In this document: positions 1,783 through 19,859 of the stretch, piece after piece
Numbering within the stretch: position 1 is the first letter of the stretch
Layout of the letters: the number at the start of each line of letters is the position of its first letter
The notes under the pieces: generated by a model
Told to the model about the DNA's origin: nothing
Databases searched by the model: none
Seen by the model: only the letters and a program-made list of their open reading frames with translations
Made by a program: the position numbers and the translations under genes
Virus record (IMG/VR): IMGVR_UViG_3300025168_000687
Span: 1 to 23,578 of that record
DNA: 23,578 bases
Reading direction: 5' to 3' (one strand)
Origin: a virus

Positions 1783-2195
1783 AGTACTATATAATCGTTG
1801 TCGTGTGTGTCGTTAGTAGTATATTCGTTTTTATTAACAGAATAATACTTATTTTGCGTTTGGTCTACATCTTGGTCAGTACAGAATATCTTGTCATTGT
1901 ATATTAAGCTAGATAATTCATCACTATCCCAAGTTTGAGTTTCTAATTGCCATTGATTAGTATTAGCACCCCAAACATCTCCATCTGCATTTAATTGCAA
2001 ATCATAAAATCTCCCCTCTACTAAAGTAAAGGTGTGTGATAGGTTTAAGTAATCCCCACTTTGTGTAAGGGTTACGTCAGTTGTGGTAGATACATTAGTA
2101 GTGTCATCCGTTAGTATAAGCGTAGCACTTGTACTATACAATCTAGGTATAAACTCTATTGTTTGCGAACTTGTACTTGTAGTAAGTATCTTCAT
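1779..2195 (-). CDS. Conserved hypothetical structural protein, 138 aa
   Basis: Unrecognised function. The protein is rich in Thr, Ser, Asp and Asn and predicted mostly beta, with a central LVEGRFYDLQL segment, then IYNDKIFCTDQ and a terminal NEYTTNDTHDNDYIVL. Proteins ending in a similar 'IYKDKIFCT..., YxVNxxxY, NDxI' pattern recur next to portal and capsid genes of flavobacterial phages, as I recall, so a virion or head-tail connection role is likely. It starts right after a terminator and directly at a late-promoter-like motif (2196-2208), so it probably heads its own unit with the portal gene, which it overlaps by ATGA. Confidence 0.7.
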   Translation of the reverse strand: MKILTTSTSSQTIEFIPRLYSTSATLILTDDTTNVSTTTDVTLTQSGDYLNLSHTFTLVEGRFYDLQLNADGDVWGANTNQWQLETQTWDSDELSSLIYNDKIFCTDQDVDQTQNKYYSVNKNEYTTNDTHDNDYIVL

Positions 2196-2208
2196 ATAAG
2201 TATAACGC
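2196..2208 (-). promoter_or_regulatory. Late-promoter-like motif abutting ATG of the 138-aa gene
   Basis: On the minus strand this reads GCGTTATACTTAT followed at once by ATG. It matches the shared element CGTTATAnTTAT-ATG found at four other places. A terminator ends about 20 bases upstream, so transcription of the 138-aa and portal genes needs a promoter here. Promoter function is inferred. Confidence 0.55.
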
Positions 2209-2229
2209 TAAAAAGTGAGAATTTGTAAT

Positions 2230-2261
2230 AAAAAAAGAGGGATGCTATTGCACCCCCCTCT
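2230..2261 (-). terminator. Intrinsic terminator after tail-tube-like gene
   Basis: On the minus strand AGAGGG pairs with CCCTCT around an inner GGTGC/GCATC stem with loop AATA, followed by a run of T. It lies downstream of the gene ending at 2317 and just ahead of the motif at 2196-2208. Confidence 0.8.
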
Positions 2262-2316
2262 ATCATAATTAAAACAAGAACTATTCTCTTTCTTTAGCAA
2301 ATATACAAAAAATATA

Positions 2317-2856
2317 TTAAGCAGGAGTAATTGCTGTTGCTGTACTAATGTCAGGTATTGTAGAGAAGAATGGTGGATTAACCTCACTAGCTACTACCGT
2401 AATAGTAAAGCCCTGCAAATCAGCTGCTGCTGCTCCTGTTAAAATTGTACCACCTGTAACCTCTGCACCGTTGTCTTTTCCTACTAGTAAGTACTTTGTA
2501 GTACCTGCTCCATCAGGATATAGTTCAACAACATAGTGCGCCCTACCTCTGTTTAAGAGTTTTATCTCCTCTTGTGTTGCAACATCTAGGTTTTGAAAAG
2601 TAATGTTTAGAGTACTTTCATAAAAAGTAGTTCCATTTTCTCTGCTTGATGTTACGCTTGTTTCTAAAGATGTTTGACCACCTTTTACTTCAAACTTGAA
2701 AAATTCAGCACTATTATCAGTTGGTAGTGTTACCGTTCCTGATGATGGGCTTAACGCTGCTATCGCTGCGCTATAATCAAGTATGTATACATTTTTGATA
2801 CCTGCGTAAGCTGTCTTACAGCCTATGCCTCTACCTTTTGTTATTGCACAACTCAT
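2317..2856 (-). CDS. Probable major tail tube protein, 179 aa
   Basis: The protein is small, rich in Gly, Thr and Ala, with no membrane or enzyme motifs. It starts MSCAITKGRGIGCKTAYAGI and continues with alternating beta-like segments such as FFKFEVKGGQTSLE, STLNITFQNLD and AHYVVELYPDG. The size, the Thr/Gly-rich beta character and the KGGQ/E-type segments fit tail tube subunits of Bacteroidota siphophages, which polymerise around the tape measure. Its isolation between two terminators is consistent with a highly expressed structural gene. It could instead be a head-decoration or neck protein. The ATG at 2856 is preceded by AAATAAATAAAT, a leader style common in Bacteroidota. Confidence 0.6.
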   Translation of the reverse strand: MSCAITKGRGIGCKTAYAGIKNVYILDYSAAIAALSPSSGTVTLPTDNSAEFFKFEVKGGQTSLETSVTSSRENGTTFYESTLNITFQNLDVATQEEIKLLNRGRAHYVVELYPDGAGTTKYLLVGKDNGAEVTGGTILTGAAAADLQGFTITVVASEVNPPFFSTIPDISTATAITPA

Positions 2857-2871
2857 ATTTATTTATTTATT

Positions 2872-2911
2872 AAAAAAGGGCAGGTAGGATATTCCTAGCC
2901 CACCCCTTTTA
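2872..2911 (-). terminator. Intrinsic terminator after major capsid gene
   Basis: On the minus strand AAAAGGGG...CCCTTTTTT brackets an inner TAGGA-ATA-TCCTA hairpin, ending in a T run. It sits between the capsid stop (2924) and the start at 2856. Read-through into the next gene is possible, since no clear promoter separates them. Confidence 0.7.
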
Positions 2912-2923
2912 TGTTGGTTAATA

Positions 2924-3823
2924 TTAACTTAGCAATACAATATCAGAACCGATACCATACTGAATACCTGCTGTATAGCGCATAACTACACGAACATTTT
3001 GTGAACCATCTAGGTCAGCCATATCAATAACTTTAACTTCATTACGGTCATCTAATAGACCTGTACCAAAGAATAAGTTAGATGCTTGTGCAGCAACTGC
3101 TGTGTTATCAGCTAGTCCACCTGTTGTAAACAACTTGATACCTTGAAAGTTCATTTCTGTCTGTCCTACGTTATAAAGTTCTCTATAACCTAGTGCAGCT
3201 TGTGCAGAGATATAAGCCTTAGCAATATTTTGTGAAATATAGATAGTTAAATCTTCTTTTCCATAAACACCGCTTGGGATAGCATCTACAATAGCACCTA
3301 ATTTAGCCACAACATTTGTAGCAGTAATAGCACCACCTGCTGCAACATCTACAACCGTTCCATCTCCACCTAGTTCAGTAGAAAAGCCATTAAAAGAACC
3401 TTCTCCTGCTGTACCACTCCAAATAGATGTTTCAGTTGCCTTAGCAACCTCAGCAGCTACTCTTGCAATAACATAGTCAGAAAATAAAGGAGGCAATTCA
3501 TCAAAAGCACTAAAGCCCATTTGTGCCGCCTCCCAATCCTGATGTAGTTCCTTTCGGCAAATTTGCAGATTTACTTGCATTTCAGAGGGGGTGAGTACTT
3601 TTTCTGTTAGTGTAAGACCTGATGTTGTAGCATCAAAATCACAGTCAGCAGAACGTACAAGGTTAGAAAATGCTCCTACTTTCATAGCAGCTTTATATTT
3701 GATATTAGGAAGGATAGTAATTGCTCCTTCGTCTAAAGTTTTTGCGGATAGCAAAGCAGCACCTAGATACTTCCCTGCAAACTCTCCACTATAACTTGAA
3801 TTTGTAATTGTTGGATTAGCCAT
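2924..3823 (-). CDS. Major capsid protein (HK97-like), 299 aa
   Basis: This should form the icosahedral head shell. The protein begins MANPTITNSSYSGEFAGKYL and has the charge-poor Ala/Gly/Thr-rich composition of capsid subunits. Recognisable segments are NIKYKAAMKVGAF, the NLQICRKELHQDWEAAQMG stretch (an area I associate with Bacteroidota phage capsids), a Gly/Ala/Val-rich middle, LTIYISQNIAKAYISAQA, and a C-terminal block VRVVMRYTAGIQYGIGSDIV typical of the last strands of the HK97 fold. The gene follows the acidic scaffold-like gene by 15 bases and is followed by a terminator, as expected for an abundant product. Start: ATG at 3823 after an AT-only leader (AAATAAATAAA). Confidence 0.85.
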   Translation of the reverse strand: MANPTITNSSYSGEFAGKYLGAALLSAKTLDEGAITILPNIKYKAAMKVGAFSNLVRSADCDFDATTSGLTLTEKVLTPSEMQVNLQICRKELHQDWEAAQMGFSAFDELPPLFSDYVIARVAAEVAKATETSIWSGTAGEGSFNGFSTELGGDGTVVDVAAGGAITATNVVAKLGAIVDAIPSGVYGKEDLTIYISQNIAKAYISAQAALGYRELYNVGQTEMNFQGIKLFTTGGLADNTAVAAQASNLFFGTGLLDDRNEVKVIDMADLDGSQNVRVVMRYTAGIQYGIGSDIVLLS

Positions 3824-3838
3824 TTTATTTATTTAATT

Positions 3839-4438
3839 TTAGTTGTTAATTTTAGACATTACCTTATCAAGAATGCTTGGTTTTCTGTTTTGTGCAAACT
3901 TAACTCCGATATTGTTATTTTTTTGTTCAGGGTTATGAGCAATAGGCTCGGCAGCAGGTTCAGACAATTCCTCTTTTACTTCTTTCGGTAATTCCTCTGA
4001 TAACTCTACTTCATCTTCACTCATTTCTTCTTTCTTCATATCTTCAATCATAGCTTTGATTTCAGATACTGCTTCTGCTAGTTCTTCTTTAGTAACATAG
4101 CCCATTTCTTCTTCTTCTGCTTCTACTTCTTCTTCAGCAGGTGCTTCTTCTTCGTCTAGGTCTTTAATTTCAGCAATGATGCCTTCTTCTGCTACTACTA
4201 GCATCTTACCATCTTCCATAGTATAATCGCCAACAGGCAACGCTACTTTGTCATCTTCGGTAACTATAAATATTTCTTTTCCTGCTTCAAACGCTTCTGC
4301 TTCTAATACAGTACCGTTGTCTAGCTTTGCAGTCGCTAGTTCTACCTTCTCTTGTGATTGCTCAACATCCTTTACAATGTCAGCAGTTTCTTCACCAAGA
4401 AAAGTTTTAATCTTATTTAACATTTCGGTTGCTTTCAT
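3839..4438 (-). CDS. Acidic scaffold-like protein upstream of capsid, 199 aa
   Basis: A 199-residue, strongly acidic protein with long Glu runs around residues 93-155 (for example EEEVEAEEEEMG), preceded by a compact block with LDNGTVLEAEAFEAGKEIFI and VALPVGDYTMEDGKMLVV. The C-terminus turns basic (NRKPSILDKVMSKINN). Capsid scaffolds are typically acidic, helical, with a short basic capsid-binding tail, and lie directly before the major capsid gene, as here. I also recall this 'NGTxLEAExFEAG...VALPVGxY' block next to capsid genes in Bacteroidota phages. A scaffold removed by the XkdF-type protease is the simplest reading. The start is fixed by the late motif running into ATG. Confidence 0.65.
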   Translation of the reverse strand: MKATEMLNKIKTFLGEETADIVKDVEQSQEKVELATAKLDNGTVLEAEAFEAGKEIFIVTEDDKVALPVGDYTMEDGKMLVVAEEGIIAEIKDLDEEEAPAEEEVEAEEEEMGYVTKEELAEAVSEIKAMIEDMKKEEMSEDEVELSEELPKEVKEELSEPAAEPIAHNPEQKNNNIGVKFAQNRKPSILDKVMSKINN

Positions 4439-4451
4439 ATAACTATAACTA
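4439..4451 (-). promoter_or_regulatory. Late-promoter-like motif abutting ATG of scaffold-like gene
   Basis: The minus strand reads TAGTTATAGTTAT then ATG. It matches the common element except for AG in place of CG. The unit it would drive is scaffold plus major capsid. Confidence 0.45.
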
Positions 4452-4474
4452 TTTAATTAACTTATTTTACATTT

Positions 4475-4882
4475 TTAGCTTAGCTGCTTTGCTTTTAATT
4501 CAGCTTCATCTGCAAGCTTTTGTATTTCTTTTACATATTCTTTATGCGCCCCTAAAGTCATTTCAGCATTTTTATATTCATTTGTTTTGGTAACATCAAC
4601 CCCTAGTTCTCTACCATTTCTGACATATTCATTCATAATATTGACTAAAGGTGCACTTATACCAATACCTGCGCTATACTCACTTGCGTATTGTCTAAAC
4701 TCTTTTGCTAATTGAGCAGCTTGTTGGCTTAATTTAACAAATCTACGTTCAGCCTTTTGACCTTGTGAAAGGTCTTTGTCTACTTTTTTTGTAGCACTTG
4801 TTAATTCTTTTAAGCTACTTAACTCTACTTTAGATAGTTGTTCTTTATTTATTTGAGCAATCTTACTCATCGCTTTTTTCAT
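4475..4882 (-). CDS. Helical protein with MSKIAQIxKEQLS N-terminus, 135 aa
   Basis: Unrecognised. The protein is Lys/Glu/Ala-rich and mainly alpha-helical, with coiled-coil potential over about residues 30-70 and 110-135. Residues 4-21, AMSKIAQINKEQLSKVEL, nearly repeat the N-terminus of the next gene upstream (4900-5424), while the rest of the two proteins differs. It sits between the protease and scaffold genes, so a capsid-core or scaffold-associated role is plausible. The DNA is visibly more A+T-rich than that of the flanking head genes, which suggests later acquisition. An internal ATG 9 bases after the first (MKKA then MSKIA) could be the real start. Confidence 0.6.
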   Translation of the reverse strand: MKKAMSKIAQINKEQLSKVELSSLKELTSATKKVDKDLSQGQKAERRFVKLSQQAAQLAKEFRQYASEYSAGIGISAPLVNIMNEYVRNGRELGVDVTKTNEYKNAEMTLGAHKEYVKEIQKLADEAELKAKQLS

Positions 4883-4899
4883 AATTTATATTTTATACT

Positions 4900-5424
4900 C
4901 TAATTAGTTTTTATTAGTTTATTTAATCTATCACGCATTTTAGAAAAACTTGCAGTAGGTATTTTAACACCTAAATCTTTAGCAGCCTTTTCAGCTTGTG
5001 TAATCATTTTCTCAAAAGAAGAAACATTTTTAGTAGCCTCTTTTATTAAAGGTTTACGTTTTGCAACAAATCTATCTGCGTTTTCATCAAATCTTTTAAA
5101 AGAACTTACAGCACCGCTATAATCTTTATCTGCTCTATTACTGTCTTGTCTCGCTGTTTCAAATTCTCTTTCTAATTTTCTAAATTTATCTGATGCTTTT
5201 TCTGCTATCTGTTTAAGTTTCTTTTGTTCTTTTAAAGCACTTGCAGCAAGTTTGCGGTTTTCTCCTATTGTTTTATTAATTTTAATAATTTCTTTTTCAA
5301 GTGTTTGAGATGAATTAAGAGTTTTGTTTAAGTCATCAACAACACCAAGTTCAACCTTTTGAGTAGATAATTGTTCTTTATGTATCTGAGCAATCTTGCT
5401 CATTGCGTTTTTATTTGTTTTCAT
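4900..5424 (-). CDS. Coiled-coil protein with MSKIAQIxKEQLS N-terminus, 174 aa
   Basis: Unrecognised. A highly charged, almost entirely helical protein; the span from about residue 30 to 150 has coiled-coil character (KEIIKINKTIGENRKLA, KKLKQIAEKASDKFRKLE). Residues 7-22 (NAMSKIAQIHKEQLST) share the short N-terminal motif of the neighbouring 135-aa protein. Position after the protease and before scaffold and capsid suggests a head-assembly or ejected internal protein; the shared N-terminus could be a packaging or protease-processing signal. This is inference only. An internal ATG at residue 8 would give a start equivalent to the motif's own Met. Confidence 0.6.
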   Translation of the reverse strand: MKTNKNAMSKIAQIHKEQLSTQKVELGVVDDLNKTLNSSQTLEKEIIKINKTIGENRKLAASALKEQKKLKQIAEKASDKFRKLEREFETARQDSNRADKDYSGAVSSFKRFDENADRFVAKRKPLIKEATKNVSSFEKMITQAEKAAKDLGVKIPTASFSKMRDRLNKLIKTN

Positions 5425-5432
5425 AATATATA

Positions 5433-5564
5433 TTATACTTTACCTATTCCTTGATTTATCAATTTACCTTTACAGCATTTTGTACTATAAGTATCTTTGT
5501 CTGCACATAAACATCCACGTTTACTGCTTTTAGGACTTGTGCGTGATACTGTTAAATCTTTCAT
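5433..5564 (-). CDS. Small Cys-rich protein, 43 aa
   Basis: A 43-codon frame, coupled by ATGA to the gene upstream. The sequence has GCLCADKDTYSTKCCKGK followed by LINQGIGKV: a C-x-C and a C-C pair that could bind a metal or form disulphides. Short proteins with a 'GCLC...YSxKCC.G...QGIG' pattern are, as I recall, repeatedly found in head regions of flavobacterial phages, which supports it being real. Function unknown. Confidence 0.65.
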   Translation of the reverse strand: MKDLTVSRTSPKSSKRGCLCADKDTYSTKCCKGKLINQGIGKV

Positions 5565-5692
5565 CCTTGCCCTCTGTATTTTTTCTTATAATGTTTGCTA
5601 CCCTTTATGCTACTCATTTTAGTTTTAGCGTGTACACCCTTACGTCTTACTTTAGGTTTTATTATATGCGCTACTTCTATTCTTTTAGCCAT
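5561..5692 (-). CDS. Small basic protein, 43 aa
   Basis: A 43-codon frame whose ATG overlaps the protease stop (TAATG). It is very basic (RIEVAHIIKPKVRRKG, KHYKKKYRGQG), without Cys or membrane segments. The tight coupling on both sides and the compositional continuity with the neighbours support expression. It might bind DNA or an acidic head protein; no family recognised. Confidence 0.55.
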   Translation of the reverse strand: MAKRIEVAHIIKPKVRRKGVHAKTKMSSIKGSKHYKKKYRGQG

Positions 5693-6870
5693 TACTTAAT
5701 AGGTATGCAATTAGGTACTAACTTACCATTCTTTCTTTTCATTCCGTACTGCTCATATCCATCAGTACAAGGTGCTTTAAGTTTGTGTTGCTCACAAGGC
5801 ATAAACCAAGTCTTACCCTCATACTCGTGTTCGTGGTAACTCTCACAACCTATATCCTGTGCTGCTTTTATTGCTAGTTCTTTAGTTGCGTAAGCTAGTC
5901 TATCATCTATAATAGCCATAGTATCGCTAACTACTTCACTCGCTAACTCTAACAACCCTAATTCTTTTAGTTTGCTTTCTGACCATCTCTTGGCAGCTTT
6001 ACCACCCCACAACAAGTAAGATATAGTACCACAAGCTTTAGTGTCGCTTTCATCATAATACTCCTCTGCTCTTGACAAGTAAGAGTACATACGTTTTATG
6101 GTGTTTTCGCTAATAGGTTTGCCTTGTGCTAGTTGTTGCGCTCGTATCTTACCTACTTCTGTTGCACATTTGTTGTTTACTTCTTTGTTAAGGTCTATAC
6201 CTCTTTGTGCGTTATTCTTTACAGCATCAGGATAGTCAGAGTAGCTTTCTAGTTCTTCTTTCTTACCATCCTTATAGCGTTTGTCATTTCTTACAATTCT
6301 GCGTATATAAGATAGCATATCTTGTGCTTCTTCTTCTTCAAAGTCATTTATAGGTTCTTTAGGTCTTTCCATCTTGTCAATGAAATAACCCTCTATTGAG
6401 AAGCCTTTTACTTTGCCTGTTTTTACATAGTCATTCCAAACCTCATCGTTGTTTACTTTAACAACACCCATCCAAGTACCCACAGGCACGTTTAAGCCAT
6501 ACTTTCTAGACTTATCGTGTGTTTCATCTTCTACTAGCCAACTCTCTACTAGCGTAAGCCCATTTAGGCTGTGTTGGTGTTCTAGTGTGCTGTTGTTCTG
6601 ATTGCCTTTCATAAGGTACATTTCAGCAGCCTTACGGATAGTGTCTTTAGAGAAGTAAATATAATACTCATCTTCTCCTTTACGTCTGTATATAGGTTTG
6701 TTAGGAATAAGTAAAGCACCTACTAATAGTTGTTTGTCTATTTGCGCTAGTTGTACTTCTTCGTTTTTTAGTGCAACAAAGTCTTCTTCAATGGCAGGGT
6801 TTTCTACAATAGAGATAGCCTCTATACCCTCTACACTATTTTCATCTAAAATAAGTTCAACTATCCTCAT
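5692..6870 (-). CDS. XkdF-type prohead protease with C-terminal extensions, 392 aa
   Basis: The first 168 or so residues match the XkdF/S78-like phage head maturation protease family: a start MRIVELILDE with 'GIEAISIVENPAIEEDFVAL', then LVGALLIPNKPIYRR, the EHQHS segment at residues 97-101 and KGFSIEGYF at 155-163. His98 or His100 and Ser158 are the likely catalytic residues. It should cleave scaffold and capsid precursors. A second block at about 213-304 (SDYPDAVKNNAQRGIDLNKE, then GTISYLLWGGKAAKRWSESK) is a domain I have seen attached to head proteins in many phages but whose role is unknown to me. The C-terminus (about 335-392) has four Cys and ends KLVPNCIPIK. The late motif abuts the ATG. 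Confidence 0.8.
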   Translation of the reverse strand: MRIVELILDENSVEGIEAISIVENPAIEEDFVALKNEEVQLAQIDKQLLVGALLIPNKPIYRRKGEDEYYIYFSKDTIRKAAEMYLMKGNQNNSTLEHQHSLNGLTLVESWLVEDETHDKSRKYGLNVPVGTWMGVVKVNNDEVWNDYVKTGKVKGFSIEGYFIDKMERPKEPINDFEEEEAQDMLSYIRRIVRNDKRYKDGKKEELESYSDYPDAVKNNAQRGIDLNKEVNNKCATEVGKIRAQQLAQGKPISENTIKRMYSYLSRAEEYYDESDTKACGTISYLLWGGKAAKRWSESKLKELGLLELASEVVSDTMAIIDDRLAYATKELAIKAAQDIGCESYHEHEYEGKTWFMPCEQHKLKAPCTDGYEQYGMKRKNGKLVPNCIPIK

Positions 6871-6883
6871 ATAACTATAACGT
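6871..6883 (-). promoter_or_regulatory. Late-promoter-like motif abutting ATG of protease gene
   Basis: The minus strand reads ACGTTATAGTTAT then ATG, a full match to the element shared by five units. It lies in the 30-base gap after the tape measure gene and would drive the head-gene unit. Confidence 0.55.
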
Positions 6884-6900
6884 TTATTTTTTATATTTTA

Positions 6901-8637
6901 CTATATTGATGCGCCCTCTACTATATTACGCTCTAAACTTTGTGCAGTTGTTACGTCTTGTGATGTTACAAACGCTTTAATAGGTCTTTCATTTTGACCT
7001 GCTATTGTTTCTGCTAATTGGTTTCCTGCTCCTGCTCCTACTAAATTAAATGCAGGGGGTTGTGGTGCGCTTGGTCTACTTGGTGCGCTTACGCTTGGTG
7101 TACCTCCTCCACCTGCTACTTGTGGTGTTTTAGTAGATGCGATGGCTTTAACATTTGCTAAACCTGCTACTGTCGCTGCTGCTGCTGCTGCAAACCCTAA
7201 TGCAGGTCCTACAACAGGTATTTTAGAAAGAGATGCGTAACTATTTTGCGCACCCTGATAAGTAGCTATTAAAGCACTAGATATAGCTGCTGCCTTACCT
7301 GCTGCTGTTTCTTTACCCAAATTAGCTGCTAAACCTGCTAAACCTTGTTGAGCATAAGCGAGTTTTTGGTCTTGTGTCATTTTAGCCCAAGTAATCTCAT
7401 TATCAGAAGCTTGTTCGTTAAGACCGTTTATTTTGCCATCAAAGTCTTTTTTAAGAGCAATAAGCATCTCATTCTTTTGCGCTTCGTCAGTTATCTCACG
7501 TTCTATAAGTAGCTTTTTAGCATCATAGTCTTGTTGTAACTCTAGCCTTTCTATCTCACGTTCTGACTTACCTATAAGTGCTAATTCGTTTTGTAAGTCT
7601 GTTTGTTCTCTTAAAAGTGAATTAGTGTTTGTTTGTTGCTCACTTCTAAAGCCTGTTATTTGCGCCTCAATGCCTGCCTGTTCGTTAAGTGCTTCTTGGT
7701 AGGCTATTTGTAAATCTATATTATCTTTGTTTTTAGCTAGTTCTGCTTCTGCTTGTAATACCCTAGCATTCGCATTAGCCATCATAGCTTTTTCTTGTTC
7801 GTCTAGGAGTTTACCTAATTCTTGATTAGCTTTTATACGCTCCTCAAAACTCTTACTTTCGTCATCTCTTGTTTGTCGTAACTGTTCAGCTTGTCTATCG
7901 TATTTTTCAATTAGCCCCTGATTGGCTGCTTCTGCAAGTCTAGCTGTTTTTTCTAGTTCTACATTTGCTGCTGCAGCTTTGCCTGTTTCTTTAACATATT
8001 CAGTAGTCGCTTTAACAACTTTGCTTACCGCTTCTGTGCCTTTGTCAAAAGAATTATTAACTCCTGTAAGTACGTCTATACTTTCTTTCCCTGCACTTTT
8101 AACATCGTCTAATGCACCTACAAAATCCCCTTCGAATACTTTTTTAACAGCACTTGCAATAAACCCCAGAGTATCTAAAAAACTATTAAACCTTTCTATG
8201 ATATTCTCCTTGACTAAATTGCCAAATGTTTGTAGTGAACCAATAGGGTCTTCAAATATAGACTTAAAGAAATCTGTTACTATACTAGAGTTGTTTATAA
8301 TAAAATTAGCAAAGTCATTAAATGCAATAGATATAAACTCAAAAGCCTTATTAAAGCCATCCGCTACTACTTGGTTTTGTTCAAATATTTCTTTTAGCTT
8401 GGCAAAGGCAGCAATAGCCAAACCAATACCTGCTGCTTTTAAAGCATTACCGATACCTTTTACACCTCTTGCTGTGTCTTTAGATGCGCTTTCAACTCCC
8501 TTTAAGCCTTCTTCTGTTTGCTTATTACCTTTAGCTACTTCTTTATTTAAATCTCCAACCTCTTGGGATAAATCCTGTATGCCTTTTAAGGCTTTGTCAG
8601 TTTTTGCTTCTAGGTCTATAATTATTTTTTCTGCCAT
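6901..8637 (-). CDS. Tail tape measure protein, 578 aa
   Basis: The longest mainly helical protein of the tail cluster. It starts with coiled coil (residues 5-60, rich in Lys/Glu/Asp), followed by a hydrophobic segment around 62-80 (GIGNALKAAGIGLAIAAFAK), long charged coiled coils (about 220-400), an Ala/Gly-rich hydrophobic C-terminal part (about 440-500, with ALGFAAAAAATVAGLANV) and a low-complexity Gly/Pro/Ser tail. This layout is characteristic of tape measure proteins, which set tail length and help DNA entry. At about 1.5 angstrom per residue the tail would be some 85 nm. The gene overlaps a 48-aa gene at its start. Confidence 0.85.
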   Translation of the reverse strand: MAEKIIIDLEAKTDKALKGIQDLSQEVGDLNKEVAKGNKQTEEGLKGVESASKDTARGVKGIGNALKAAGIGLAIAAFAKLKEIFEQNQVVADGFNKAFEFISIAFNDFANFIINNSSIVTDFFKSIFEDPIGSLQTFGNLVKENIIERFNSFLDTLGFIASAVKKVFEGDFVGALDDVKSAGKESIDVLTGVNNSFDKGTEAVSKVVKATTEYVKETGKAAAANVELEKTARLAEAANQGLIEKYDRQAEQLRQTRDDESKSFEERIKANQELGKLLDEQEKAMMANANARVLQAEAELAKNKDNIDLQIAYQEALNEQAGIEAQITGFRSEQQTNTNSLLREQTDLQNELALIGKSEREIERLELQQDYDAKKLLIEREITDEAQKNEMLIALKKDFDGKINGLNEQASDNEITWAKMTQDQKLAYAQQGLAGLAANLGKETAAGKAAAISSALIATYQGAQNSYASLSKIPVVGPALGFAAAAAATVAGLANVKAIASTKTPQVAGGGGTPSVSAPSRPSAPQPPAFNLVGAGAGNQLAETIAGQNERPIKAFVTSQDVTTAQSLERNIVEGASI

Positions 8638-8768
8638 TTCGCTTCTCTTTTAATTTTCTTACCTGCACCCATCAAACTATTAGGCAAATGATACTTACCT
8701 TTTGCTATACGGATGTTCTCTGTTTCTCCTTTTGCTAACTCTAATAAGTCTAGTATATTCTTAATCAT
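8622..8768 (-). CDS. Small basic protein between tail genes, 48 aa
   Basis: A 48-codon frame with ATGA coupling to the large gene upstream and a 16-base overlap with the tape measure start. Sequence: MIKNILDLLELAKGETENIR then a basic C-terminus (GKKIKREAKWQKK). Overlaps on both sides strongly favour a real gene. No family recognised; a tail assembly role is suggested only by position. Confidence 0.55.
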   Translation of the reverse strand: MIKNILDLLELAKGETENIRIAKGKYHLPNSLMGAGKKIKREAKWQKK

Positions 8769-10945: not shown

Positions 10946-11871
10946 TATCTTATATTGTTTATTTTGTCAAATGCAAATTCAAACTCTAACGTGTATTGCA
11001 CAAGCCTATCATTGACTGATGTTTTAAATTGCAATGATTTTGTTTTAGGTATAATAGGAGAAGTAGTGCCATCTTTTGTTAGCCATATATGCTCGCTCAA
11101 TAATAGTTCTTCTAATACTAGGTTGTAATTGTCAGCAACAAAAGGAGTGTTTAAGCTAATAGTTTCTTTAGCGTTTACGTTGTATGTAGATACTTGATGC
11201 CTTGTTATGTCGTATGTTGCAGGGCTTGTATTTGTTACAAGGTTAGATTTATAGTTTTCAGAACTTACATTTACTGTTTCTTGCTGTTTAAAGAAAAAAT
11301 ACAATTCTTGTAGTGCGCCAAACTTATTGACAAAAGTAACCTTTGTAGAACCAAACTTTGTATCGCAAACCCTATTGATTGTAAACGTTACTAAAGGACT
11401 ACCTATTTGTTTTATTGTGTCTGTTGTAGATATAGCTATCTGACCCGTTAAGTAGTTTATAGGTATGTAACTAGCTGTGTTGTCAGGTAAGTAAATATCT
11501 GTGTTTGTTTGTATAGCTTGACCTGTACCACCTATTGTTGGGTTTATACCCTCGCTAAACTCTCCATATCCATCATAGCCTACGTCTGAAACAGGTGATA
11601 GTGCAGTTGCAGTTCCTGTACCATTAAGCCCTGTGTATTGTGTTAGAGTTGTACTTATAGCTATTGTAGATGCAGGGTTACTTAACCCAAAAGTATGTGT
11701 TATATAATCTCTTGCTATCTCTGATATATCAAATACCACCACATTGTTAATAGCGTTTTTTGTAATTGTGTATCTTAACGTACCTTCAATACTAACCGCT
11801 ATATTGGCAGATAACATACCAACAGCAGTAGTAGATTTATATTGTGGAGAACGTAGTAATAAGTTTGCCAT
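10945..11871 (-). CDS. Tail structural protein, 308 aa
   Basis: No enzyme motif. The protein is beta-rich and begins MANLLLRSPQYKSTTAVGML, with VVFDISEIARDYITHTFG, TFINRVCDTKFGSTKVTFVN and FGALQELYFFFKQQETVNVS. The 'FVNRFGALQ-x-L(Y/W)FF' type segment is familiar from tail-associated proteins of Bacteroidota phages. Placed between the tail completion genes and the probable tail tip gene, it may be a distal tail or adaptor protein. Three bases separate it from the upstream stop, and its own stop overlaps the next GTG. Confidence 0.55.
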   Translation of the reverse strand: MANLLLRSPQYKSTTAVGMLSANIAVSIEGTLRYTITKNAINNVVVFDISEIARDYITHTFGLSNPASTIAISTTLTQYTGLNGTGTATALSPVSDVGYDGYGEFSEGINPTIGGTGQAIQTNTDIYLPDNTASYIPINYLTGQIAISTTDTIKQIGSPLVTFTINRVCDTKFGSTKVTFVNKFGALQELYFFFKQQETVNVSSENYKSNLVTNTSPATYDITRHQVSTYNVNAKETISLNTPFVADNYNLVLEELLLSEHIWLTKDGTTSPIIPKTKSLQFKTSVNDRLVQYTLEFEFAFDKINNIR

Positions 11872-11873
11872 AG

Positions 11874-12413
11874 TTATTTTCTTTCATATGATGATGATGA
11901 TATAAACTCCTCTAAATCTAGTTTATATGCTTCTATTATTTCTTTTGGTAGTTTCTCGTATGCTTGTTCAAAACTTCTACTAAAAAACTGTGTAGCTTTT
12001 ATACCTTTCTTTTTGATTGACTGTGCTATAATAAACCCTATTGTTTTGTATGTGCCTTTTGCAAACTTACCCTTGTCTCTTAATCTAAATCCTTTCTTTT
12101 TAGCCCACTTACCAAAGATGCCTGTTGCAGCTTCTAGTCCTATAAGGTTAGAACTTGGCTTGTAGCTAAATGGTGTTTTCTTATTTTCTACATAGTTAGA
12201 CTTTGTACCTTTTACACCCCTGTCTACAAATTGACCGTACTCATTCATTAGGAAGTGTATCACAAAAGAACTAGGAGTTGTGTCTAACTTGTATTTAAGG
12301 CTATTGTACAAGGACTTATTGACATTCATCTTACCCTTTGTAAGTCGTGTCCTAGATTGCTGTATAACCCTCTTGGCAAATTTTTCTAGTATGTCCTCTG
12401 TATTGTCTAACAC
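11874..12413 (-). CDS. HK97-gp10-like tail completion / head-tail joining protein, 179 aa
   Basis: A basic protein with an N-terminal amphipathic helix (DNTEDILEKFAKRVIQQSRT), a central FVIHFLMNEYGQFVDRGVKG segment and a basic C-terminal region. The 'Y..FVDRGVKGT' motif is typical of HK97 gp10-like or minor tail proteins of this class, where 'Y(A)xxxExGT' is the usual equivalent. These proteins join or complete the tail. GTG start, overlapping the previous gene by 7 bases. Confidence 0.6.
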   Translation of the reverse strand: MLDNTEDILEKFAKRVIQQSRTRLTKGKMNVNKSLYNSLKYKLDTTPSSFVIHFLMNEYGQFVDRGVKGTKSNYVENKKTPFSYKPSSNLIGLEAATGIFGKWAKKKGFRLRDKGKFAKGTYKTIGFIIAQSIKKKGIKATQFFSRSFEQAYEKLPKEIIEAYKLDLEEFISSSSYERK

Positions 12414-12877
12414 AAGTTTTGGTCGTTAGGTATTTGTATGCTAATGTTACAACTCCATCCTGCTAGTTCGTTCTCAAACCTATCATAGAAAGGTTCACAA
12501 GTAGGGTCACCTGTTAATTGAAACATATCCCTGTATAGTGTGCCTTGTCTTAAAACCCCTGTCAGTTTGTTTATTACAGCTAGTTGAGTGTTTAGTATGT
12601 CTTGCTCGTTATTGTTTCCTATAAACACATCTGTTGTACTTGACTTTGATGTGTCTACAATATCCATTGATAATACAGATATTTGAAAAGTAAGTGTCTG
12701 CTCCTGCATAGTTACGCTGTTTACTATTACGTGTGTTAGCGGAAACATTGTTTGCTTGGATAAATCTATCTCGGACAAATCTCCTGTTGTTACTGTATTA
12801 ACACTACTGTTAGCTAGTAACTCGTTTTTAATCTTATCTAGTACAAGGTAAAACCCTCTTGGTGCTATGTTAGCCAT
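12407..12877 (-). CDS. Probable tail terminator/neck protein, 156 aa
   Basis: The protein has an N-terminal helix (RGFYLVLDKIKNELLANSSV), then beta segments (FPLTHVIVNSVTMQEQTLTF, ISVLSMDIVD) and a conserved-looking C-terminal part with WSCNISIQIPN. This alpha-beta pattern, with the statement of 'I..D......T......Q..' at mid-protein, fits phage neck or tail terminator proteins of the gpU/gp17 type, as does the position beside the gp10-like gene. It overlaps the chaperone-extension stop by 8 bases. Confidence 0.5.
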   Translation of the reverse strand: MANIAPRGFYLVLDKIKNELLANSSVNTVTTGDLSEIDLSKQTMFPLTHVIVNSVTMQEQTLTFQISVLSMDIVDTSKSSTTDVFIGNNNEQDILNTQLAVINKLTGVLRQGTLYRDMFQLTGDPTCEPFYDRFENELAGWSCNISIQIPNDQNLC

Positions 12878-13097
12878 TTCGTTTAATTCTTTTTGCTTCT
12901 AATTCGTTCTTCTCTTTCATAAACTCTAATGCGTATAAACACTCGTGCATATTTAGTTTAGTGATATTTTCAAATCTTGTAATGTTTCCTTGAGCCAATC
13001 CGTATATTGATTGATACCAACCCCACTTTGCTCCAAAGTTTGCTTCTGTTGATAAGTCATTCCCTCCTTGAGTGAATAGTCCATCATAACCTGACAC
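12870..13097 (-). CDS. Tail assembly chaperone, frameshift extension (GT-type) part
   Basis: This frame is open without stops from about 13178 to 12870, in the -1 frame relative to the chaperone gene it overlaps. Its only usual start is a GTG at 13097, giving 75 aa. The content (GAKWGWYQSIYGLAQGNITR, then NITKLNMHECLYALEF and a Glu/Lys-rich end) is the pattern of the downstream half of tail assembly chaperones: W-x-x-x-I-x-x-L-A-x-G-x-I then a helix with 'E-L' and charged tail. In lambda and most siphophages this half is made by -1 slippage from the upstream frame. A slip at 13117-13125 would give a 242-aa fusion (160 + 82 residues). Confidence 0.7.
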   Translation of the reverse strand: MSGYDGLFTQGGNDLSTEANFGAKWGWYQSIYGLAQGNITRFENITKLNMHECLYALEFMKEKNELEAKRIKRNG

Positions 13098-13597
13098 AAT
13101 TCGCTCCCTAAATTGTAAAAAAAAACAATAGAACCTAATACAACTCCTAATGGCATATGCTTGTAATGTAAAGCATCTTTAGCTTCGTATGGCTCTATGT
13201 TATACAGTTTATCGTATTTGCCCTGTATGGGTCTGTAAAGAACTGCCATAGCCCTCTCTATGTTATCCCAATCCCCCAAGTATGTGTCAATGTCTATGTA
13301 CTCTCCAAAAGACATATTATCTAGGTTAGGTATAAATCCATATTTTTTACCATCAAGTTTAAACTCCCTTGTTAGTGCAGGAGTTTCATCAAACATCTTT
13401 GTAAGGGTTTCTACTATTTTTTGTATGTCAGCAGCTTTGATGTTTCTTACAACTGTGTCAGGCACTTGACAAAAGATGCCCACCATTTTAAGGGCTACTT
13501 GGTTTTCAGTTAAGCCTTCAGGTAGTTTTAGATACTGTTGGTATTGACCAAGAGTAATCTCGTTAAGGCTTGTGGGTACGTTTAATTCATACTTCAT
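12953..13597 (-). CDS. Tail assembly chaperone (G-type), 214 aa
   Basis: The protein starts MKYELNVPTSLNEITLGQYQ, then KMVGIFCQVPDTVVRNIKAA, GFIPNLDNMSFGEYIDIDTY and MAVLYRPIQGKYDKLYNIEP. This is the pattern of the conserved Bacteroidota phage protein upstream of the tape measure, equivalent to lambda gpG. It coats the tape measure during tail assembly. I chose the ATG at 13597 rather than an upstream in-frame start at 13693, because the extra residues would come from terminator and promoter sequence and because the late motif ends exactly at 13598. The sequence VFFY at residues 158-161 is encoded by a run of nine T. Confidence 0.75.
   Translation of the reverse strand: MKYELNVPTSLNEITLGQYQQYLKLPEGLTENQVALKMVGIFCQVPDTVVRNIKAADIQKIVETLTKMFDETPALTREFKLDGKKYGFIPNLDNMSFGEYIDIDTYLGDWDNIERAMAVLYRPIQGKYDKLYNIEPYEAKDALHYKHMPLGVVLGSIVFFYNLGSELCQVMMDYSLKEGMTYQQKQTLEQSGVGINQYTDWLKETLQDLKISLN
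13117..13125 (-). other. U-run slippery site for -1 frameshift
   Basis: Nine T on the minus strand, read in frame as GTT TTT TTT TAC (residues 158-161). The heptamer T_TTT_TTT fits the X_XXY_YYZ rule for tandem -1 slippage. The -1 frame is open from 13178 to 12870 and carries the chaperone extension. No clear stimulatory hairpin was identified. Confidence 0.55.
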
Positions 13598-13610
13598 ATA
13601 AATATAACGT
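13598..13610 (-). promoter_or_regulatory. Late-promoter-like motif abutting ATG of tail chaperone gene
   Basis: The minus strand reads ACGTTATATTTAT then ATG. The stretch between the upstream terminator and this ATG is under 40 bases, so a promoter for the tail operon has to lie here. This makes it, with 2196-2208, the strongest case. Confidence 0.6.
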
Positions 13611-13633
13611 ATATAAAGCAGGTTTTTAGGAAA

Positions 13634-13657
13634 TAAAAAAAGGGCTATAAAAGCCCT
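13634..13657 (-). terminator. Intrinsic terminator after packaging unit
   Basis: On the minus strand AGGGCT-TTTAT-AGCCCT is followed by a T run. The stop codon of the 50-aa gene (13645-13647) lies inside the hairpin. Confidence 0.85.
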
Positions 13658-13797
13658 CTGTAAAATTCTTGTGTTCTGTGTAGTAATTCCCACACTTTAT
13701 AATCCTTGTCTTTAGGATGTCTAGCTTTTACGCTTATCCCTATGTCTGTGTGTATGTGGGTTATTATAACTCCTGTGTGTAGTTTATGTAGTTTCAT
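13645..13797 (-). CDS. Small protein, 50 aa, last gene of packaging unit
   Basis: A 50-codon frame starting MKLHKLHTGVIITHIHTDIG and containing several His. It overlaps the previous gene by ATGA, and its stop falls inside the terminator hairpin, as in compact phage operons. No family recognised. The support is the chain of overlaps, not homology. Confidence 0.5.
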   Translation of the reverse strand: MKLHKLHTGVIITHIHTDIGISVKARHPKDKDYKVWELLHRTQEFYRGLL

Positions 13798-13922
13798 CTC
13801 TTACCGTTTTCATCTACCTGTCTGCTGCGCTTGTTTGTTCTGTGGTATTGATACGTTTCTTGCCATTCAGCTAAAGGTATAAACCTAACATTCTCGTCTA
13901 TTTGTTTCTTGGTCTTTTTCAT
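13794..13922 (-). CDS. Small basic protein, 42 aa
   Basis: A 42-codon frame, MKKTKKQIDENVRFIPLAEW then a basic stretch (YQYHRTNKRSRQ). ATGA overlaps on both sides. The FIPLAEWQE segment followed by a basic tail could be a DNA-contacting or protein-docking peptide. No family recognised. Confidence 0.5.
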   Translation of the reverse strand: MKKTKKQIDENVRFIPLAEWQETYQYHRTNKRSRQVDENGKR

Positions 13923-14041
13923 ATCTCCATCTTTTGCTCCCACAGCACAGGTGTCCACTCCTCAAAGGTTTCATTCCAATATACCTCTTGCATAGTTTCT
14001 CCTGTATCTCTAAAGTGTTTGTTTCCTATTTCTACTATCAT
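13919..14041 (-). CDS. Small acidic protein, 40 aa
   Basis: A 40-codon frame, MIVEIGNKHFRDTGETMQEV, ending WTPVLWEQKMEI. It is acidic with Trp at three places, and has ATGA overlaps with both neighbours. It looks like a single short beta/helix unit. Function unknown. Confidence 0.5.
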   Translation of the reverse strand: MIVEIGNKHFRDTGETMQEVYWNETFEEWTPVLWEQKMEI

Positions 14042-14154
14042 AGTCCCATCCATTTATCAGCGTGTGCGCATAGTTGGCAAAACGTGCATACTAATCCAAA
14101 AGCAGCTACGTATATAATTGTGTCAAATATAAAGTTTTCTATCTTACGTTTCAT
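14038..14154 (-). CDS. Tiny probable membrane peptide, 38 aa
   Basis: A 38-codon frame, MKRKIENFIFDTIIYVAAFG, followed by LVCTFCQLCAHADKWMGL. A hydrophobic stretch from about residue 8 to 29 could span the membrane, and three Cys fall near its end. It is the first of four coupled tiny genes downstream of the large terminase, starting after an AACAAACAT leader. Function unknown. Confidence 0.5.
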   Translation of the reverse strand: MKRKIENFIFDTIIYVAAFGLVCTFCQLCAHADKWMGL

Positions 14155-14224
14155 ATGTTTGTTTTTAATTATGATGCTAATATATAAACTATTTAGTTAT
14201 TAACCAAATTGTAAATAACTTTTC

Positions 14225-15376
14225 TTAATGAATGTAGTACTTACCGAAGTTAGGTCTGCTAAGTATAGAGTAACAAGAATATCTGGCAGCATCAATCGTG
14301 TGGTTGAAATCATCCTGTGGAATATTTGTCATCCTACCTGCTCTATCTTCTTTCCACTTGTAGTTTCTAAACTCTTTAATCATATTCTCGCTATCCTTTG
14401 TTACGTGTAGTTTGTATCTTTTAAGTAAGTCTATTCCTGCTAGTACAGAATTAGCACCCTTATAAGACTTCATTACCTTGTGTCCGTATCTACGCAACTG
14501 TTCTATTATTTCAGGTCTTGCACTATCTGCATAAGTCATACCTAATACCTCTACTCCTTTTAGATATTGGTGTATGTCCTCTGTGGTCATCTTTGACCTG
14601 TATAGCATTTCTTTAAAGTATAGGTTGTGGTCTTTCTTGTATGTCGCAACAAGTGTAGTAGGGTCGTTAAATCCAAAGTCCATCCCATAAGCCACAAGCT
14701 GTGCATCATCAGGTATGCTGTCAATCTCTGTGTATTTGAATATAGTTGCTTTGCTAATTGCTCTTTGTCCAAGTCCATATATTCTCCAATAGTTTTCGTC
14801 TGTGTCTTTTAGTAGTTCTATCTCGCTTCTTATGCTATCGTCTATAAAAGGATTGTCTAGGTAAGTAGTGCTATATATTTCTACGTCATCTCTTGGCTCT
14901 AGTCTTTCCCATATCCAATGGTATTCGTCTGATGGGTTTAAGTCTCCTATAATCTTTTCTGTTGTTCTAAATGCTAACTGTTGGAATGCTTCTCTATCAA
15001 GTTCATTCATCTCATTGCAAAAAAGTAAATCCCTTTTGCGCCCTCTAACCTTTTGTGGTTGGTCTAATGATATAAACTCTATAAGGTTGCTATCTAGCTT
15101 ATACTCGTGATTACTTTTGTTGTGGTGCTGCTCATCGTATAAGTCCATACCTTTAAGTATCTCTAGGAAATCTCGCATCACAGTACCCCTTAATGCAGGG
15201 AATGTCTTACGGCATATAGTTATAATCTTGTTATCGTTGTGTTGACAGTAGTGTAGTATTATCCACAGGAGGACATTGTATGTCTTACCGCTTCTTGTTC
15301 CACCAACTTCTAATGTTATCTTCCTATTAGAGTTGGTTAGATGGTTATATACTTTATTTACTTGTATTGTGGTCAA
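14225..15376 (-). CDS. terL: Terminase large subunit, 383 aa
   Basis: The DNA-packaging motor ATPase and nuclease. Walker A is VGGTRSGKT (residues 24-32), Walker B is LLFCNE (117-122), and the RNase-H-fold nuclease domain has YGMDFGFNDPTT (Asp233), TYADSA (Asp284) and NHTIDAARY (Asp362). At 383 residues it is short but within the range for Bacteroidota phage terminases (Terminase_3/Terminase_6 type). No ATG or GTG lies upstream of Walker A in frame; the start is a TTG at 15376 inside the small subunit gene (23-base overlap), just after a TGA. Translation is therefore likely coupled to the small subunit. Confidence 0.93.
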   Translation of the reverse strand: MTTIQVNKVYNHLTNSNRKITLEVGGTRSGKTYNVLLWIILHYCQHNDNKIITICRKTFPALRGTVMRDFLEILKGMDLYDEQHHNKSNHEYKLDSNLIEFISLDQPQKVRGRKRDLLFCNEMNELDREAFQQLAFRTTEKIIGDLNPSDEYHWIWERLEPRDDVEIYSTTYLDNPFIDDSIRSEIELLKDTDENYWRIYGLGQRAISKATIFKYTEIDSIPDDAQLVAYGMDFGFNDPTTLVATYKKDHNLYFKEMLYRSKMTTEDIHQYLKGVEVLGMTYADSARPEIIEQLRRYGHKVMKSYKGANSVLAGIDLLKRYKLHVTKDSENMIKEFRNYKWKEDRAGRMTNIPQDDFNHTIDAARYSCYSILSRPNFGKYYIH

Positions 15377-15713
15377 TCACTTCTACCTTAAAACTCTTTT
15401 GTTTTGTGTCGTGCTTTATCTCTCGCTTTGTACCATTCAATCTGTGCGCTTCGTCGTCATCACTAATCAGCTTCATTAGTCCTATTTGTAATGTTGCGTT
15501 ATCGCTTTCGTACCACTTCTTACGCATCTTAACTTTCATATCAGAACGGTTTTTATTCAATGCGCTTTTTATGTCGTTACATTCGTGCAGCTTATGGTCA
15601 TAGATAGTACGCTTGGAGAAGCCTACATAAGCAGGTATATCCCCTATAAACAATAGGTTGTTATCTTCTATTGCTTTAAGTGCTTCAAGTCTTATTTCTT
15701 CAGTATTATACAT
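15354..15713 (-). CDS. terS: Terminase small subunit, 119 aa
   Basis: The DNA-recognition subunit of the packaging motor. An N-terminal helix-turn-helix is visible (ALKAIEDNNLLFIGDIPAYV then GFSKRTIYDHKLHE, residues about 11-46), followed by a basic helical oligomerisation region and a charged tail. Size, position directly upstream of the large subunit and the overlap support the call. The late motif ends at its ATG, so this gene likely heads the packaging unit. Confidence 0.8.
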   Translation of the reverse strand: MYNTEEIRLEALKAIEDNNLLFIGDIPAYVGFSKRTIYDHKLHECNDIKSALNKNRSDMKVKMRKKWYESDNATLQIGLMKLISDDDEAHRLNGTKREIKHDTKQKSFKVEVIDHNTSK

Positions 15714-15726
15714 ATTAGTATAACGT
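15714..15726 (-). promoter_or_regulatory. Late-promoter-like motif abutting ATG of terminase small subunit
   Basis: The minus strand reads ACGTTATACTAAT then ATG, matching the shared element except for one base (A for T). It would drive the packaging unit. Confidence 0.5.
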
Positions 15727-15741
15727 AATTAGTTTACTTTT

Positions 15742-15834
15742 TTAAAACACTAAATTATATATGCTATTCCAAATAGATATTGTCATTATTCCTATTACTA
15801 TCCAAGCTAATATTTTTGTGTGGTTTATTTTCAT
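15742..15834 (-). CDS. Tiny membrane peptide, 30 aa
   Basis: A 30-codon frame, MKINHTKILAWIVIGIMTIS, ending IWNSIYNLVF. One transmembrane segment covers nearly the whole peptide. ATGA-coupled to the other tiny membrane peptide. Such tiny membrane proteins in phages include lysis regulators and host-membrane modulators, but no family is recognisable. Confidence 0.45.
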   Translation of the reverse strand: MKINHTKILAWIVIGIMTISIWNSIYNLVF

Positions 15835-15926
15835 AAGTTTGTTATTGTTTTAATTAATCCACCTATTGCTCCTATTGTTAGAAAGGTAGCCCATATAATT
15901 ACTATTATGTATATAGCTTTTTTCAC
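15831..15926 (-). CDS. Tiny membrane peptide, 31 aa
   Basis: A 31-codon frame with GTG start overlapping the DnaA-like gene's stop (GTGA). Sequence MKKAIYIIVIIWATFLTIGA, ending GGLIKTITNL: two Lys and then a single hydrophobic segment, so the N-terminus is probably cytoplasmic. Overlaps on both sides support translation. Function unknown. Confidence 0.45.
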   Translation of the reverse strand: MKKAIYIIVIIWATFLTIGAIGGLIKTITNL

Positions 15927-16423: not shown

Positions 16424-16438
16424 CTGTATAATAGTTTA

Positions 16439-16528
16439 TTAGTTTCTCATTTGTGTTTTCGTATGCTCTTTGTAGTTCGCCCTTAAAGTAGGCATAACTT
16501 TTTATTAGTGTGGTCTTACGTATCATAG
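16439..16528 (-). CDS. Doubtful tiny ORF, 29 aa
   Basis: A 29-codon basic frame (MIRKTTLIKKVMPTLRANYK then EHTKTQMRN), whose ATG may overlap the preceding tiny ORF. A run of T lies inside. A neighbouring frame over the same span encodes a more protein-like helix, which would be reached by a one-base change in that run. Either reading is weak. Confidence 0.2.
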
Positions 16529-16650
16529 TTTAAAGCATCTAATATAATCATTTCTTCTTTAACCTCTTGTAGCATTTCTAATGCATCTTCATAATCTCCT
16601 AGCTTGATGGCTAGTTGTATGGTTTCCATATCGCTTATAAATCGTTTCAT
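16525..16650 (-). CDS. Small helical ORF, about 41 aa
   Basis: A short frame starting at 16650, MKRFISDMETIQLAIKLGDY then EDALEMLQEV: a charged amphipathic helix pair. It starts 2 bases after the GIY-YIG gene's stop. The exact 3' end is uncertain by several bases. It fits the pattern of tiny coupled phage genes; function unknown. Confidence 0.4.
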
Positions 16651-16651
16651 A

Positions 16652-18240: not shown

Positions 18241-18254
18241 AGTTTCTCTGTTTG

Positions 18255-19858: not shown

Positions 19859-19859
19859 A

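Follow-up and report, generated by a model that had tools for sequence, protein, structure and literature searches.

What drives the late genes of a phage whose late units all open with the same short sequence? This question is raised by IMGVR_UViG_3300025168_000687, a 23.6-kb virus record (23,578 nucleotides) that was analyzed over its whole length and is called the window here. The gene-sized open reading frames (ORFs) discussed below lie on the minus strand throughout the window, and five of them start at an ATG directly joined to the element in question. We consider it very probable, from the sequences compared here, that each of the five copies is a late promoter recognized by host RNA polymerase with the phage's own sigma factor of the extracytoplasmic function (ECF) type. 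In the proposed mechanism, host RNA polymerase carrying this sigma factor (encoded at 19982-20479) would bind each promoter late in infection through an A-rich YAAAA block, separated by a 13-nt spacer from a -10 element, CGTTATA. Sigma region 2 would read C-12, G-11 and T-10 via R72, D69 and S65, and transcription would most likely begin with the A of the ATG; the mRNAs of the packaging, tail, protease, capsid and portal units would then have no leader and be translated as such.

All five copies that a preliminary description of this DNA had placed directly before an ATG were found there, on the minus strand, and its coordinates, given for the motif without the ATG, agree within 1 base. The putative promoters are as follows.

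15711-15744, minus strand: late promoter 1, TerS-like gene; TAAAAA from 15744, core CGTTATA at 15725-15719, predicted +1 at the A of the ATG, 15713
13595-13628, minus strand: late promoter 2, g12953; TAAAAA from 13628, core CGTTATA at 13609-13603, ATG at 13597-13595, hairpin upstream
6868-6900, minus strand: late promoter 3, XkdF-like protease gene; TAAAA from 6900, core CGTTATA at 6882-6876, ATG at 6870-6868
4436-4469, minus strand: late promoter 4, g3839; TAAAAT from 4469, core AGTTATA at 4450-4444 (A, not C, at -12), ATG at 4438-4436
2193-2225, minus strand: late promoter 5, g1779; CAAAT from 2225, core CGTTATA at 2207-2201, ATG at 2195-2193, hairpin upstream

With the ATG included, the full 15-mers occupy 2193-2207, 4436-4450, 6868-6882, 13595-13609 and 15711-15725 and have 0, 1, 0, 0 and 1 mismatches, respectively, to CGTTATANTTATATG. 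The common sequence ascribed to all five holds in four copies; the g3839 copy (4450) has A in place of C as the first core base. At one mismatch or fewer, CGTTATANTTATATG matches only these five sites in the window, and at three or fewer there are 14 matches against 6.8 expected, a number reached in 0 of 100 shuffles. GTTATANTTATATG has 4 matches, on the coding strand only, and its reversed control 0. A pattern combining both blocks matches the same five starts, one of them in two registers, with 0 matches on the other strand. The shorter core GTTATANTWAT, at one mismatch or fewer, is not enriched in the window (18 matches, where 15.4 are expected; 24 of 100 shuffles reach that number). The window alone is therefore weak evidence, and the relatives decide.

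Related loci, 160 in number, came from two scans, the best 80 of more being kept from each; many are close copies, and a few contigs yielded two loci. On their coding strand GTTATAnTwAT has 166 matches, 141 of them directly before an ATG and all but one of these assigned to the same five genes, which is the enrichment at late genes of related phages that had been named as a check. The other strand has 27 matches (a count that excludes the window, whose five sites had been read in plus orientation), with 0 before an ATG, and the reversed control gives 12 and 10 on the coding and other strands. When the window's five are included, 145 of 146 ATG-adjoining matches fall on the five genes (g3839, 46; g12953, 35; TerS-like, 25; XkdF-like protease, 21; g1779, 18), the remaining one belonging to a protein cut to 6 amino acids, and ten other gene classes in the relatives carry 0 elements. 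After dereplication, CGTTA lies 45 nt or less from 60 of 92 late starts vs 3 of 172 starts of other genes, and exactly 12 nt before the A of the ATG at 40 of the 92.

The same specificity was found in 495 loci plus the window, where CGTTATA or TTATATATTA adjoins an ATG on the coding strand in 202 distinct contexts with an ORF (at least 40 amino acids, or cut by the locus end). One of the five genes is matched in 195 of these; the other seven comprise five proteins with 'NP..NPR' or 'KNPR' plus 'FPEML', one small protein (L326) and one cut to 4 amino acids. The other strand has 0 contexts with an ORF; where no ORF follows, 2 contexts lie on the coding strand and 1 on the opposite one. CGTTAATA, a third pattern, gives 5 contexts with an ORF, all in the isolate Nonlabens phage P12024L, and 2 and 15 without. 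In P12024L, seven starts are preceded by CGTTA, at a distance of 12 nt in six cases and 11 nt in the other; six of the seven also have CAAAW 17-18 nt upstream of CGTTA. The motif is far beyond a chance repeat.

We also observed ORFs of 173-208 amino acids with 'NPR' plus 'FPEML' near the start that adjoin the element (L283 14385, L288 5585, L370 7031, L391 6537, L223 4552); they are probably a further late-unit head in those phages.

The element is not the whole signal: an upstream YAAAA block had been missed. When 57 dereplicated sites (40 ATG-adjoining, 17 moved away from the ATG) are aligned on CGTTA, only YAAAA (-18 to -14 before the core) and CGTTATA are conserved, together with, at most sites, a T immediately preceding the ATG. 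Counting from the A of the ATG as +1, the layout is YAAAA, 13 nt, then C-12 G-11 T-10 T-9 A-8 T A. YAAA starts -19 to -17 before the core at 39 of 40 adjoining and 14 of 17 moved sites, and CAAA is found at -18/-17 in 8 of the 17. At the moved sites the core lies 13-32 nt ahead of the ATG, and in most of them the upstream block is still at its usual distance from the core. The TerS genes of L006, L011, L022 and L041, for example, have an intact element 32 nt upstream of the ATG, and those of L043-L045 have one extra base between the two. The likeness that had been suggested to the host -7 consensus TAnnTTTG was rejected, the core CGTTATA having no TTTG; the element resembles the ECF-type CGT box.

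Two observations concern the TerS promoter. In the divergent TerS variant (L006 9445, L011, L022, L041), a 32-nt stretch, AAGCGGTTTACAATAAC..., stands between the intact promoter and the ATG, which looks like a gene exchange that left the promoter in place. In L046 (9173), a 159-amino-acid ORF begins within the TerS promoter element, so that the promoter seems to have been captured by another gene.

Within one phage, the promoters change together. Among loci with at least two adjoining elements (TerS omitted, eight known variants scored), 112 of 146 carry a single variant at all scored promoters, compared with a shuffled mean of 26.8 and a maximum of 39. The 34 mixed loci consist of 31 with CGTTA and AGTTA, the latter mostly at g3839, 2 with CGTTA and TTATA, and 1 with CGATA and CTATA. 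Clades with TTATA, TGATA, CGATA, CTATA, TATTA or AGTTA have the same spacing.

The proposed reader of these promoters, and the codons on which the argument turns, are located as follows.

19982-20479, minus strand: ECF-type sigma factor gene, 165 amino acids, TTG start as listed; candidate factor for recognition of the five promoters
20264-20287, minus strand: codons of S65 (20287-20285), D69 (20275-20273) and R72 (20266-20264), computed from the ORF start

The protein matches NCBIfam TIGR02937 (sigma70-ECF; E 4.3e-11, residues 13-165), as do all 37 members of alignment A2 (E 0.01 or better), and Pfam Sigma70_r2 (E 6e-5); the Pfam region 4 model is unmatched. Its AlphaFold2 model has a pLDDT of 85, and Foldseek with this model retrieved Mycobacterium tuberculosis initiation complexes (best E 5e-4), with the sigmaH and sigmaL ones in the top ten. 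The best structural fit has Z 10.3 over 157 residues at an rmsd of 5.5, and the single domains fit at 2.2-2.6 Å (sigma2 vs 1h3l, Z 8.3, 68 aligned, rmsd 2.2; sigma4 vs 2h27, Z 8.5, 65 aligned, rmsd 2.6). Because helical bundles easily reach such Z values, it is the sequence match that carries weight for the ECF identity. ECF factors of about 160-200 amino acids have regions 2 and 4 only, as is the case here (165 amino acids; sigma2 and sigma4 taken from the predicted model), and the two-block promoter with a CGT/GTT-type -10 also agrees. A -35 with an AAC/AAT-type core and a spacer of about 16-18 bp is replaced by YAAAA and 13 nt. The promoter is thus ECF-like, not textbook ECF.

The sigma gene turns up in these phages whenever the contig is long enough. 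It is present at 20 of 20 TerL loci with at least 8.2 kb upstream. In one scan it was found in 25 of 36 records, the 11 misses all being 22.7 kb or less, and in 22 of 22 records of at least 25 kb, of which 11 were already known to carry it. In another set it was found in 9 of 32 records, 6 of 6 at 25 kb or more. A tblastn search of the window sigma against phage isolates gave no match. P12024L has a sigma gene ahead of TerL; its product is weakly similar to the window sigma (26.6% over 64 amino acids, E 2e-4) and joins the alignment, and it is not among the co-variation rows described next.

The sigma factor and the element co-vary. We compared 72 dereplicated sigma rows with promoter bases called by a procedure blind to -12 to -10 and to the sigma factor. 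By mutual information, the best of 159 columns is R72 for -12, D69 for -11 (closely trailed by other columns, 0.75 vs 0.74) and S65 for -10. At residue 72, R occurs with C 43 times, T once and A once, and K with T 21, A 3 and G 3 times. At residue 69, D goes with G (40; T 1, C 1), N with T (17; A 1, G 3), Q with A (5; T 1) and A/S with T (3). At residue 65, G goes with A (20; T 4, G 1), and S, T, C or N with T (45; A 2). Several of the odd cells are register errors of the caller (GTTTA, TTTTA and AAGTA for TTATA; TTATA for L328; ACATA for L066), whose threshold dropped 8 of 134 loci; the calls were hand-corrected for the tree. In a tree built without these columns, base and residue changes number 2/2 at -12, 2/3 at -11 and 3/3 at -10, and independent pairs all run in the same direction at -12 and -10, and in 0.8 of random pairings at -11. 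A single D69/R72 switch, our first reading, came from one event; added sigma scans split it into separate residues. The g12953 tree places L339 apart from the other non-CG phages, with 2 changes and not 1; support for this placement is weak, and we do not count it as proof.

The alignment of S65, D69 and R72 comes from a PDB profile match to sigmaR (1h3l, E 0.0075); from the residue numbers in the literature, we infer that they correspond to N88, N92 and R95 of sigmaH. Within the G-11 T-10 T-9 element read by M. tuberculosis sigmaH, it is N92 that contacts the -11 G:C pair, and N88 that contacts the -10 base (PMC6411747). The advance forecast for TGATA phages (G65, D/N69, K72) agreed with the one record found, GNK. 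For AGTTA phages, S/N/T/C65 and D/N69 with neither R nor K at 72 were forecast, and NDK was found in three records; the CGATA forecast (GDR) was checked on an already-seen contig only. Taken as a whole, it is reasonably likely that the sigma/promoter pairs of this phage family form a natural, mutually orthogonal series: residues 72, 69 and 65 would set -12, -11 and -10, and whole sets of leaderless late promoters would have been rewritten together when the sigma factor changed (CGTTA, CGATA, CTATA, TTATA, TATTA, TGATA, AGTTA, TGTTA).

Where would transcription begin? If the A of the ATG is numbered +1, the core reads C-12 G-11 T-10 T-9, matching the -10 numbering of sigmaH (PMC6411747). T occupies -1 at 174 of 176 distinct ATG-adjoining sites. 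In 33 moved rows, three of which (L070, L078, L087) are second registers of sites already counted, the +1 offset is A in 29 and TA in 22, though the ATG lies further downstream. No GTG or TTG start adjoins the element among 166 matches. From the ECF numbering and the conserved T-1/A+1, the start is placed at the A of the ATG. Late mRNAs are thus predicted to be probably leaderless where the element adjoins the ATG; where it is moved, the expected leader measures 1 to about 30 nt. It is also conceivable, though unlikely, that the promoters work as proposed but that their start sites miss the A of the ATG by a few bases, upstream or within the codon and beyond, leaving mRNAs that are not strictly leaderless: initiation distance is not constant across phage-sigma systems (7-11 and phiEco32 start 6-9 bp from the element; PMC8948821), and the moved sites indicate that a leader is tolerated. 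The sigmaH numbering, the T-1/A+1 kept in adjoining and most moved sites, and the missing GTG and TTG starts speak for the A of the ATG.

The element could act in the mRNA, as a translation-initiation signal at the heads of the late units, and not as a promoter, an alternative already raised in the preliminary description. Its usual position exactly at the ATG (141 of 166) would suit such a role, and Bacteroidota are described as having no Shine-Dalgarno sites (PMC6847099). However, because both blocks shift together away from the ATG in some relatives, by up to the 32 nt noted above and with the upstream block mostly going along, we do not regard the element as a translation signal. Two copies also stand after terminator-like hairpins, so transcription would need to restart there, and the variation of the element tracks sigma residues. 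This explanation is very improbable. Improbable, too, are promoters read by a host sigma factor (the primary sigmaA or a host ECF factor), with the phage sigma serving another purpose. The phage sigma gene does lie outside the late region, as such a division of labor might have it, but the element is without the host -7 TAnnTTTG, and within one phage the late promoters vary jointly, following three residues of its own sigma factor. Detachment from the ATG with the upstream block, joint change within a phage and tracking of the three residues all argue for promoters, as first proposed, and the last of these, residues of the presumed DNA-reading helix, points to the phage sigma as the reader that had been suggested.

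Several points weigh against late promoters read by the phage sigma factor. The Pfam and NCBIfam scores of the window sigma are just under the curated cut-offs (TIGR02937, 42.7 vs 42.9), and the pTM of its model is 0.45. The spacer between YAAAA and the core falls short of that in ECF promoters (optimum for sigmaH, 17 bp; PMC6411747), and the available text of the same paper names no base contact for R95 of sigmaH, the counterpart of R72. Some late starts of the relatives have no recognizable element (e.g., g1779 in L095 and L098, TerS in L046 and L068), and gene 179 of P12024L has CAACA instead of CAAAW as its upstream block. The residue-base code is not one-to-one, N69 occurring with T/G, Q69 with A/T and K72 with T/A; the forecast that AGTTA phages would have no K72 failed, and the g3839 promoter of the window clade has A at -12 although the sigma factor has R72. 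Independent switches are few, so that no per-position sign test can reach 0.05, and the rank test assumes exchangeable columns, an assumption weakened by shared ancestry.

The hairpins ahead of two promoters are these.

13639-13659, minus strand: terminator-like hairpin with T-tail, ahead of promoter 2
2234-2261, minus strand: terminator-like hairpin with T-tail, ahead of promoter 5

Intrinsic terminators had been reported about 20-25 bases ahead of these copies. Terminator-like hairpins do stand there, 26-29 bases upstream of the motif, but such sites are no commoner in the window than in shuffles (9 vs 8.8). A T-run is kept in the relatives at 14 of 16 (g1779) and 13 of 24 (g12953) dereplicated starts, compared with 0/15, 1/19 and 0/18 for the other three genes. 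A sigma-70 promoter scan of bases 1-20000 gave 68 matches vs 72.6 in shuffles. We noted a host-like TATATTTG box in the 2305-2234 region (minus strand), about 40 bases ahead of the terminator-like hairpin; the two may mark a short RNA, or an attenuator, in the gap from the capsid unit to promoter 5. Host-type -7 boxes (TAnnTTTG) also occur at 22508-22494 and 23179-23165 (minus strand), each followed by GCAT and then the ATG. This 4-nt gap recurs at one or both genes in L005, L006, L011, L023 and L138, and over all loci it is weakly favored (50 vs 36 on the other strand). The early genes may be leaderless too, but read by host sigmaA.

The genes served by the candidate promoters, together with TerL, are as follows.

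15354-15713, minus strand: TerS-like gene, named from its place ahead of TerL and without a family match of its own (PHROG matches only at E 0.08)
14225-15376: TerL, downstream of the TerS-like gene; Pfam Terminase_3
12953-13597, minus strand: g12953, first gene of a unit with probable tail genes; matches phrog_32199, whose function is unknown, and weakly the tail family phrog_166 (E 0.04); start at the ATG at 13597, within a longer GTG ORF listed to 13693
5692-6870, minus strand: XkdF-like protease gene; Peptidase_S78_2
3839-4438, minus strand: g3839, directly ahead of the major capsid gene (2924-3823)
1779-2195, minus strand: g1779, directly ahead of the portal gene (1-1782)

The neighboring proteins at 4475-4882 and 4900-5424 (minus strand) have AMSKIAQIxKEQLS in common near their starts. 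Among isolates, the window capsid protein matches only the Nonlabens phages P12024L/S, at about 29% identity (4 of 50,697 records). The host scan of bacterial genomes gave two records only, and a contig titled as a Bacteroidia metagenome-assembled genome (MAG) carries a sigma relative and a capsid relative at 52%. A Bacteroidota host is likely for the window phage, because that contig has relatives of both proteins. Relatives of the protease, g3839 and the capsid gene also occur in L539 (8155-10855), a contig titled as a Woesearchaeota MAG chromosome, with CAAAA plus CGTTATATTGATATG ahead of the g3839 relative; it may be an integrated phage or a chimeric assembly.

Late transcription by a phage-directed polymerase has known forms. 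In T4, late promoters use gp55, and late transcription involves gp33 and the sliding clamp gp45. Like gp55, the factor proposed here is a phage specificity factor for late genes; unlike T4 late promoters, those of the window family have a conserved upstream block. Phage sigma factors that drive late promoters are established in phiEco32 (phi32_gp36) and 7-11 (SaPh711_gp47), where the phage-encoded sigma redirects host RNA polymerase (PMC8948821), as is proposed here from co-variation. A shared motif ahead of late, mostly structural genes is found in both cases; the late promoters of 7-11 are bipartite, GTAAtg-16-aCTA, upstream of late genes, and the two phages have divergent sigmas with different promoters (PMC8948821). 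These phages differ from ours in their enterobacterial hosts, another consensus and spacer, and mapped start sites, whereas in the window family the element adjoins the ATG and natural specificities form a graded series.

Among cellular systems, ECF group 4 (M. tuberculosis sigmaH, Streptomyces coelicolor sigmaR) also combines sigma2 and sigma4 only with a two-block promoter, and its GTT-type -10 is read by sigma2-helix residues in sigmaH (PMC6411747). In contrast to group 4, we deal here with a phage gene, an A-rich upstream block nearer the core and virion-gene targets. Flavobacterium psychrophilum has a known class of promoters with a CGT box; there, unlike here, the SM6 promoters serve a cellular regulon including type IX secretion system genes, and leaderless mRNAs are only 5.5% (PMC9723704). 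A residue-base relation has been published for ECF sigmas, in autoregulated bacterial cases, as described in a review (PMC8103513) that also cites the ECF specificity code of Todor et al. 2020. An open-access literature search found, among the matches listed, no report of this motif or of Bacteroidota-phage late promoters. New are the late system for this phage family, the ATG-adjoining, probably leaderless layout and the natural set of re-wired specificities.

If the proposed mechanism is true, it would provide a late-transcription mechanism for a widespread, probably Bacteroidota-infecting phage group. It suggests that these phages use leaderless mRNAs regularly, compared with the small share of examined mRNAs in the studied flavobacterium cited above (PMC9723704). 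The family would also be a natural experiment on the joint change of a regulator and its sites, and would offer a residue-by-base -10 code that is directly testable and usable for orthogonal expression in Bacteroidota.

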